Positions 26,221 through 28,684 of a DNA stretch of 48,189 nucleotides are shown one piece after another. Position 1 is the stretch's first letter. Every line of letters starts with the position of its first letter. The stretch is from Kofleriaceae bacterium (GTDB lineage Bacteria; Myxococcota_A; Polyangia; Haliangiales; Haliangiaceae), in assembly GCA_022842285.1 (NCBI GenBank), contig JALHPV010000016.1, forward strand, positions 1 through 48,189, in the 5' to 3' direction. The position numbers were made by a program, and so were the translations under genes. Under the pieces are notes generated by a model. It searched no databases. It saw nothing but the letters and a program-made list of their open reading frames with translations, and was not told where the DNA came from.

Positions 26221-27417
26221 GTGATCGATCGGGCCGACCTCGAGAGCGCCGCCGCGGCCGCCTGTCGCGTGGGCCTCCGCGCGGGCCTGCGCGATCCCGA
26301 CGCTCGCGACCTGGCCCAGGAGGCCCTCGTGCGCGCGCTGACCTCGGCTCCCCCTCCACCGGGCGTGGCCTTGCCGGCGTGGGTTTACGGGATCGCGCGC
26401 AACCTGGCCCGTGATCATGCCAAGTCAGCGCAGCGTCGCGAGGTGCCGATGGCTACGCCGCCCGAAGCGTCGGCAACGCCGGCACCGCGAACCGAGGCCG
26501 ACGTGGTCGACGTGTTGGCGGTTCATCGCGCGCTCGACGAGCTCGCCGTCGAGTTGCGGGAGGTCGTCACGCTTCACGAGCTCGAAGAGCGGACCCTGCG
26601 CGAGACCGCCGAGATCCTCGAGATCCCCTTCGACACGGCGAAGGACCGGCTCCGTCGTGCGCGCGCACACCTCCGCGTGTCGCTCGGAGAGCCCGATCGC
26701 GCGCTGGCGCACGAACGTACGGACACGCGGCGACGGGCGGCGGCGGGCGCGGCGGCGATCACCGCTGCACTCGCGGGTTTGCTCGCGGTCCCCGCGCCCG
26801 TCGAGGCCGCCCCACACGTCGGCGCCCTCGCGGCGCCCTCGCGTCGGTCGACCCTTGCGTGGACCGCCGGGGCTGCGCTCCTGGTCACGGTCGGGTTCGG
26901 CCTCGGCCGCGCGACGGCGCCGGCAACGGTACCGCGGGTCATCCCCATGATCGCAGCTGTACCGGAGGCAGCCCCCCGCGGGCTCGGCACAGCAATCCTG
27001 GCGCCTACCGCCACGTCCACCTCCACCGAGGTGCGGGTCGCACGACCGGATCGCGCGCCGTCGCGGCCCGCCGTACCGACGCCGACAGCTGCCGTGGCGC
27101 CGTCGGAACCTCCACGTGCCTTGCCGCGCGACGAGGTCCTCCTGCTCGATCGAGCGAGGACCGCGGTGGCGCGCGGGCTCTTCCACGAGGCTGTCGTGAC
27201 CCTGATGTCCCACGCACGCACGTATGCGGATGGCGAGCTGGCCGAGGAGCGCGACGTCCTCCTCATCGAGGCGTACCTCGGAGGTGGCGAGCTTGACCTG
27301 GCGCGCCGGCGCCTCGCTCGCTACTGGGTCGACCACCCGCACGGCAGCCTCGGGGCCCGGGCCCGCGCATTGAGCGACCTTGCCAAGCACCCTGATGAAG
27401 CCGGCCTCACCAAGTAA
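26221..27417 (+). CDS. ECF-type sigma factor fused to membrane segments and a C-terminal repeat domain
   Basis: 398 residues from GTG 26221. Residues about 10-75 are sigma region 2 (RDPDARDLAQEALVRAL, WVYGIARNLARDHAKS), and about 95-155 are region 4 with the helix-turn-helix (TLRETAEILEIPFDTAKDRL). Unlike a normal ECF factor it then has two hydrophobic stretches (about 172-192 and 210-230), a long Pro/Ala/Thr-rich linker and a C-terminal helical domain (about 300-390) resembling the C-terminal TPR-type repeats of sigma-factor partner proteins. This suggests a self-tethered or self-regulated sigma factor; whether the tail ends up inside or outside depends on how many segments span the membrane. 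No separate anti-sigma gene is adjacent. Confidence 0.85.
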   Translation: MIDRADLESAAAAACRVGLRAGLRDPDARDLAQEALVRALTSAPPPPGVALPAWVYGIARNLARDHAKSAQRREVPMATPPEASATPAPRTEADVVDVLAVHRALDELAVELREVVTLHELEERTLRETAEILEIPFDTAKDRLRRARAHLRVSLGEPDRALAHERTDTRRRAAAGAAAITAALAGLLAVPAPVEAAPHVGALAAPSRRSTLAWTAGAALLVTVGFGLGRATAPATVPRVIPMIAAVPEAAPRGLGTAILAPTATSTSTEVRVARPDRAPSRPAVPTPTAAVAPSEPPRALPRDEVLLLDRARTAVARGLFHEAVVTLMSHARTYADGELAEERDVLLIEAYLGGGELDLARRRLARYWVDHPHGSLGARARALSDLAKHPDEAGLTK

Positions 27418-27455: not shown

Positions 27456-27992
27456 ATGAGAACTACCCTCTTCGTGGGCGCCCTCGCGCTCTTGGCCATT
27501 GGTTGTGGAAGCGATGATGAGGAGTACGAGCCGACCGGCACCGGGCCGGCCGCGCGCGTCTTCTGCGACTCGAGCGGCAAGAACGCGTTCGACACCTACG
27601 GCACGAACGGCTTCGTGGCGGTGAACGAGGAGATCTTCGAGCTCACCACTGCGGAGCTGACAGCGAATGGCGACGCGAATCTCGGCAGCTCCTTCTCGGG
27701 CGTCGCAGACTTCGCTCGCTTCAAGGGCCGGCTCGCGGCCTTCCTCGTCTTCGTGTACGGCGGGCCCGACACCATCACGTACACCGACGGCGTGAGCTAT
27801 ACGGCGACCGACCAGGACATGACCGCTGCCCACACCGGCATGGGCATCACGAGCGCGCAGTACGACTACTTCGTCACGAACATCATCGTGCCGGCGCTCA
27901 CCACGAGCGGCGTGACGGCGGACGATGTCTCGAGCTGCTTCGCGCCCCCGGTCACCGACGCGACCTTCAAGGCGTCGATCGTGGGCAAGTAA
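27456..27992 (+). CDS. Lipoprotein-anchored truncated haemoglobin (group I-like)
   Basis: 178 residues. The signal ends at Cys17 (LALLAIGC), followed by an acidic stretch. Residues about 44-178 follow the 2-on-2 globin pattern: YGTNGFVAVNEEIFELT for helices A/B, FSGVADFARFKGRLAAFLVFVYGGP for the B-C/E helices, DMTAAHTGMGITSAQYDYFV with proximal His126, and a helix G/H region. Cys37 and Cys161 could form a disulfide outside the cytoplasm. Truncated haemoglobins bind O2, CO or NO and some detoxify NO; an exported lipid-anchored form would act in the periplasm or outer membrane. The stop overlaps the next ATG by one base (TAATG). Confidence 0.85.
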   Translation: MRTTLFVGALALLAIGCGSDDEEYEPTGTGPAARVFCDSSGKNAFDTYGTNGFVAVNEEIFELTTAELTANGDANLGSSFSGVADFARFKGRLAAFLVFVYGGPDTITYTDGVSYTATDQDMTAAHTGMGITSAQYDYFVTNIIVPALTTSGVTADDVSSCFAPPVTDATFKASIVGK

Positions 27993-28684
27993 TGCGCGCG
28001 GTCCTGGGCTTCGCGGCCGGCCTCTTCGTCGCGTTCATGGTCGCCGTTCACGACCCACGCCTGATGGGCATGCTGGGCGTGACGGCCCAGGCCGATCCGG
28101 CTGGCGGCGGCGACGGCTGTCCGTTCGGTTACGACCAGCCGCCGGAGGCGCGCAGCGCCCCGTCGATGACCGCCATGGCCCAGGCGATCGTGGCCCGCAC
28201 GCGTACGGCGATGCTCGCGAGTGTCCCCGAGCGTCCGGCCCTCGGCTTTGCGCTTGGCGAGACCACCCGCACCGAGATCTTGACCTGGGCCGCGCGCCAC
28301 GCCGTGACGTGCGACGAGCTCCGCGACGGCTCGAGCCTCGAGTGCAGCAACGTTCCAGTCGGCGCCCTCACCGTTGATCCCGCGCAGCTCAGCTCGGCGA
28401 GTGCGTGGTTCGAGTTCTCCGGCGACAAGCTCGTCCGCGTGAAGACCCTCCGCCGCTCGGACCTCTCCGTGCAGGTCGAAGGCGCCTTCGAGCGGACGCG
28501 CAACGCGATCACCGCGCGAGCAGGGGCGCCGACCGCCACGAGCGGTCAGCCCGCGCTCCTCGCCCGCGGCGCCCTGCGGCAGAGCAGCGCGGAGTTCGCG
28601 TATCGCAACTACGTGGCGAGCGTGCGGGCGACGAACCTCGGCCGCGACGGCTTCGCCCTGACCGAGAGCTACGCGGCCCGCTGA
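27992..28684 (+). CDS. Exported protein of unknown function, coupled to the truncated haemoglobin
   Basis: 230 residues. The N-terminus (VLGFAAGLFVAFMVAV) is a signal peptide or single anchor. The mature part has a glycine-rich CPFGYDQPPEAR segment, then a domain with helices (ALGFALGETTRTEILTWAA) and strands (ASAWFEFSGDKLVRVKTL, SVQVEGAFERT). Three cysteines remain in the exported part. It is not recognised. The 1-nt overlap with the globin gene implies joint production, so a partner role is likely but inferred. Confidence 0.75.
   Translation: MRAVLGFAAGLFVAFMVAVHDPRLMGMLGVTAQADPAGGGDGCPFGYDQPPEARSAPSMTAMAQAIVARTRTAMLASVPERPALGFALGETTRTEILTWAARHAVTCDELRDGSSLECSNVPVGALTVDPAQLSSASAWFEFSGDKLVRVKTLRRSDLSVQVEGAFERTRNAITARAGAPTATSGQPALLARGALRQSSAEFAYRNYVASVRATNLGRDGFALTESYAAR

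Follow-up and report, generated by a model that had tools for sequence, protein, structure and literature searches.

A lipoprotein truncated haemoglobin and its partner from a new protein family: a candidate two-protein haem module of the bacterial envelope

Why would a bacterium anchor a truncated haemoglobin outside the cytoplasm, and why would the gene for it overlap a gene for another exported protein that belongs to no recognised family? The truncated globins that have been studied best are cytoplasmic proteins, and, to our knowledge, the partners of these proteins are mostly unknown. The two genes that raise these questions lie in a stretch of 48,189 nucleotides that was analysed as a whole (the window), which lies on contig C16 of a 550-contig, 7.9 Mb genome. 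A preliminary description of the window had reported two overlapping open reading frames of 178 and 230 amino acids, and their positions and one-base overlap are as it described. The stop codon of the globin gene (TAA, 27990-27992) and the start codon of the partner gene (ATG, from 27992) together form TAATG, with one base common to both.

27456 to 27992, forward strand: lipoprotein truncated haemoglobin, 178 amino acids plus stop (open reading frame; Bac_globin; family profile against HbN)
27992 to 28684, forward strand: the partner, a predicted exported protein with a membrane anchor, from a new family; 230 amino acids plus stop (open reading frame; kept beside the globin)

Calling the 178-residue protein a globin is not trivial, because its score as a single sequence is below the Pfam cut-off: it scores 17.8 bits (E = 0.004) against Bac_globin, for which the cut-off is 21 bits. 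As a single sequence, it also matches HbN from Mycobacterium tuberculosis weakly (E = 7e-4), and a search with this one sequence against contigs from one genome per species found just one relative, from "Deltaproteobacteria bacterium MGR_bin195" (a name that NCBI places under Myxococcota). A profile built from an alignment of 13 relatives of the window globin (A1) matches HbN with E = 1e-9 and other group 1 chains with E = 3e-9 to 5e-8. Judging by this profile, the window globin is a member of the group 1 truncated haemoglobin family, if a distant one, with its globin domain at residues 51-157, so the family named in the preliminary description stands. An AlphaFold2 model of the window globin is mostly helical (pLDDT 54, from a two-row alignment). 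Foldseek with this model returned nothing under E = 1, and given the model's low confidence, the absence of a globin match is not evidence.

27456 to 27506, forward strand: predicted lipoprotein signal peptide MRTTLFVGALALLAIG, with lipobox Cys17 (codon 27504-27506; from the sequence, the lipobox pattern, and relatives)
27564 to 27566, forward strand: Cys37, N-terminal half of a predicted disulfide with Cys161 (A1; co-conserved columns)
27936 to 27938, forward strand: Cys161 in a CFAPP motif, C-terminal half of the predicted disulfide with Cys37 (invariant in A1)

By its signals, the window globin is a predicted exported lipoprotein. Its N-terminus (MRTTLFVGALALLAIGC) has a basic n-region, then a hydrophobic core, and then LAIGC, which ends in Cys17 and matches a PROSITE-like lipobox pattern. 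Cys17, which had already been proposed as the lipobox cysteine, is almost invariant in the A1 relatives. Among globins that are linked to the partner, 49 of 61 frames match the strict lipobox pattern, and several others look like lipoproteins by eye. Cys37 and Cys161, the two cysteines that had been singled out before, are present and co-conserved. Across subtypes, the cysteine pairs of the mature domain come in three arrangements: in the N-terminal extension and CFAPP (as in the window), in helix E and CRDM, or in helix E and GGPC. These look like differing solutions to one need, as an oxidising compartment would select.

The suggestion that exported truncated globins are exceptional turned out to be too strong. 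The same genome encodes five other Pfam globins, of which three are predicted lipoproteins (on contigs C339, C143, and C22). The first two (L189:3399-3989 and L190:2223-2702, respectively) are lipoprotein truncated globins with the helix-E and GGPC cysteine pair, and neither has a partner gene in its vicinity. Many lipoprotein globins of this subtype lack a partner, and they recur across the class, so the partner is not required by exported globins generally. The third (L192:1629-2993, on C22) is a lipoprotein truncated globin that is fused to a long C-terminal part. This part matches copper-binding proteins (E = 0.02) and a carboxypeptidase-regulatory-like family (E = 0.001), both below threshold, and may serve in cis as an electron-transfer partner. 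As a type, lipoprotein truncated globins are thus common in this group, and what is new is the family of the partner and its obligate pairing with the globin. In the open-licence literature, no bacterial globin lipoprotein turned up that has a partner like this one, which is a weak kind of absence.

The preliminary description had said that it would be refuted if the partner were not conserved beside the globin in relatives, but it is conserved there. With a profile of the partner, 53 of the 317 genomes of the window's class were found to encode it. Among the loci whose contig leaves room for a neighbour (n = 53), an exported-type globin gene adjoins the partner gene in every one. The globin gene lies upstream on the same strand in 51 of these loci (median gap 3 bp; 40 gaps of at most 30 bp); the exceptions are L122, where the globin gene is downstream, and L130, where the two genes are convergent. 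Four full-length partners were found outside the class (L193-L196), each with an adjoining globin. Because these genomes encode thousands of genes and very few globins, a random neighbourhood is ruled out. We also rejected a chance overlap of reading frames, given how consistently and how closely the two genes sit side by side.

Does the pair belong to a larger gene cluster? In the relatives' loci, the flanks include genes for phospholipase D, peptidases, L,D-transpeptidase, HlyD, a kinase, a Rieske protein, a sigma factor, and others, and no third gene is common to them. Similarly, no gene of NO metabolism is consistently near the pair in those flanks. Because the immediate flanking genes vary by locus, we take the unit to be two genes. 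In the window, the gene just upstream (26221-27417, co-directional) encodes a sigma factor of the ECF type, extended at its C-terminus by a long extra part that holds a hydrophobic segment. A sigma factor gene also precedes the pair in L111, and it is not a general neighbour. At another locus (L048:1525-5985), the genes downstream of the pair encode fvmX7 and bpMoxR domains of a described ternary system family.

28049 to 28051, forward strand: partner His20, where the N-terminal hydrophobic segment ends on its outer side (at least 90% conserved in 47 partners)
28118 to 28123, forward strand: partner Cys43-Pro44, a juxtamembrane motif (invariant in 47 partners)
28310 to 28345, forward strand: partner Cys107 to Cys118, a cysteine pair of the alpha/beta domain, predicted disulfide (invariant in 47 partners)

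The partner has a basic start, a single hydrophobic segment, and a C-terminal domain. We read the hydrophobic segment as an uncleaved anchor because the residue that precedes His20 is often Leu (by eye). The preliminary description had called the partner coupled, exported, and unrecognised, and our searches bear out the last of these: the 47 partners have no recurring match to any Pfam or NCBIfam family, and no PDB chain matches the partner profile. From these comparisons, the partner appears to be a new protein family that is defined by its linkage to the globin. The AlphaFold2 model of the partner has a pLDDT of 47 overall and about 75-84 over residues 84-159 (from a two-row alignment). In this low-confidence model, residues 84-159 or so form an alpha-beta domain with a weak likeness to BLIP, OsmE, and BamE (Z of 4-6, mixed with unrelated rows).

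The partner tree indicates that the two proteins are inherited together. The globins that are found with a partner are of the CFAPP and CRDM subtypes, and if this subtype is used as a label on the partner tree, it changes 2 times, versus a mean of 16.4 times for shuffled labels (0 of 500 shuffles were as low). The label for the main host family changes 11 times. So the branches of this tree follow the subtype of the globin, not the host family.

There is also a divergent form of the partner, which is a lipoprotein that lacks the segment with His20 and Cys43-Pro44. By eye, it has equivalents of Cys107 and Cys118. This form occurs beside exported globins elsewhere in the phylum. It adjoins tandem-domain globin lipoproteins in 10 loci, one of which (L057) is from the window's own family, and in several of them the partner gene comes first. 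In 7 of 17 divergent-partner loci (L197, L201, L202, L203, L208, L209, and L212), there is no globin in the stretch that was read, which was roughly 4 kb on each side in most. Two loci (L199:97-2142 and L204:2600-4039) encode an exported lipoprotein in which three truncated-globin domains follow each other in tandem, with the divergent partner adjoining. Because adjacency is kept despite a changed gene order, we favour a working link over a merely frozen order. Vertical synteny alone was considered and rejected, as the order is reversed in other families and the partner tree follows the globin rather than the host. Overall, we are confident that a dedicated two-protein haem module of the envelope exists.

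27636 to 27638, forward strand: Phe61 at B10 (Tyr33 in HbN), apolar distal residue (HbN alignment)
27732 to 27734, forward strand: Leu93 at E11 (Gln58 in HbN), apolar distal residue (HbN alignment)
27831 to 27833, forward strand: proximal His126 (F8), invariant in 78 of 78 domains and in the A1 relatives

What might this module bind? We aligned the 78 globin domains that adjoin partner genes with HbN. The proximal histidine, His126 as first proposed, has no exceptions; the Tyr of the Y-G motif (YTG) is present in all 78 domains, and the CD1 Phe (Phe80 in the window globin) is present in 77. On the distal side, B10 is V, L, I, F, T, or M and is never Tyr; E11 is L, F, or M and is never Gln; and all but one of the 78 domains have an apolar residue at E7. 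By this alignment, the distal haem pocket is apolar throughout the partner-linked globins. The window globin does not have Tyr B10 with a polar partner at E7 or E11, which is a usual, if not strictly defining, trait of group 1. In HbN, the Tyr B10/Gln E11 pair stabilises bound O2. If a haem pocket offers no hydrogen-bond donor, O2 is disfavoured as a ligand and NO and CO are preferred, as in cytochrome c' and the H-NOX proteins. Because the distal pocket is apolar, we infer, by analogy with cytochrome c' and H-NOX, that NO and CO are the preferred ligands, and a role as a gas binder or scavenger would fit such a pocket.

Our best reading, which we hold tentatively, is an envelope haem protein that binds NO or CO, together with a dedicated membrane-tethered subunit for docking or assembly. 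The first gene would encode a lipid-anchored haem protein of the outer compartment, of the group 1 truncated-globin type. His126 would hold the haem, and the purely apolar pocket above it would disfavour O2 and prefer NO or CO, as in cytochrome c'. The globin would most likely bind, buffer, or remove NO (or CO) at the envelope. Through coupled translation, the second gene would yield a membrane-tethered protein whose disulfide-bearing alpha/beta domain may bind the globin and dock, assemble, or reduce it at the membrane. Points against this reading are the low confidence of both models, the seven divergent-partner loci in which no globin was seen, the many lipoprotein globins that have no partner, and the lack of a regular NO-metabolism neighbour. 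With a little more reserve, we propose that this is an envelope haem system that is widespread in the phylum: NO/CO-selective lipoprotein globins, each with a dedicated partner, membrane-anchored or lipidated, that docks, loads, or reduces the globin, and with the two kept together through changes of subtype, gene order, and host lineage.

The rivals to this reading are, in descending order, haem loading, a redox enzyme, and a sensor. The partner could be a membrane-tethered haem donor or chaperone that loads the apo-globin via His20 and Cys43-Pro44, or the pair could be a haem-scavenging relay with the globin as the carrier. These residues are almost invariant and lie close to the membrane segment on its outer side, haem must be supplied to any b-type haem protein of the envelope, and an apolar pocket with only a proximal His would suit the holding of haem. 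However, the divergent partners that accompany tandem globins do not have the segment with these residues, many exported globins occur with no partner, and no TonB receptor or haem transporter is common to the flanks of the relatives' loci. We consider this explanation unlikely, if the most plausible of the rivals.

Alternatively, the globin could be an envelope enzyme that reduces O2 or NO or is an NO dioxygenase, with the partner as a docking or electron-transfer adaptor. In cable bacteria, periplasmic multihaem cytochromes are fused to truncated haemoglobin domains and have been proposed to be oxygen reductases (PMC11976967), and the weak copper-protein match in L192 (under the cut-off) points the same way. 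On the other hand, the 47 partners lack a cofactor motif, CXXCH, or a metal-site family when compared to Pfam and NCBIfam, and the globin lacks the O2-stabilising residues of HbN. This makes an enzyme rather doubtful, more so than haem delivery.

The preliminary description had suggested a gas sensor or scavenger. The sensor, in which the partner would relay the binding of a ligand by the globin, is the weaker half of that suggestion, because an output domain on the cytoplasmic side is absent from both proteins. On that side, the partner carries no more than a short basic tail, and those partners that are lipoproteins do not cross the membrane at all. An arrangement of two proteins and a pocket of a kind that selects NO would suit a sensor, and so would the ECF-type sigma factor gene in the window and the one in L111, but sigma factor genes are not recurring neighbours, and we think that a sensor is improbable. 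Finally, a globin fold that was reused without haem, in a structural or protein-binding unit, is very improbable: the window protein alone is under the Pfam cut-off and some members are very divergent, but the conservation of the F8 His, the YTG Tyr, and the CD1 Phe is hard to explain without haem.

If the pair is an NO- or CO-binding haem protein with a dedicated subunit, as we prefer, then it bears on the ways in which bacteria that are predators or live in soil may deal with NO or CO at the cell surface. A phylum-wide exported branch with an obligate, unnamed partner also offers a direct handle on how b-type haem globins are assembled and used outside the cytoplasm. And the linkage to the globin defines a new protein domain family.

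How does this system compare to those already described? The window globin resembles the group 1 truncated haemoglobins (i.e., HbN and the cyanoglobin GlbN) in its profile, its proximal His, its CD1 Phe, its GGP and Y-G motifs, and the length of its core. Unlike them, it is an exported lipoprotein with paired cysteines, an apolar B10/E7/E11 pocket, and an obligate partner gene. Cytochrome c' is a periplasmic haem protein that binds NO and CO through a covalent c-type haem. It is similar only in how it works, as a haem protein of the envelope whose distal face is apolar; its fold is unrelated, its haem is covalently attached, and it is not of the same family. For the partner, the alpha-beta domains of BLIP, BamE, and OsmE share a weak structural resemblance (to a low-confidence model) and no sequence match. 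The nearest published exported truncated globins that we found are the fusions from cable bacteria (PMC11976967), which also place a truncated globin domain in the envelope. In contrast to those fusions, the system described here has no multihaem domain; its globin lipoprotein, with a single domain or domains in tandem, is accompanied by a separate partner from a new family.
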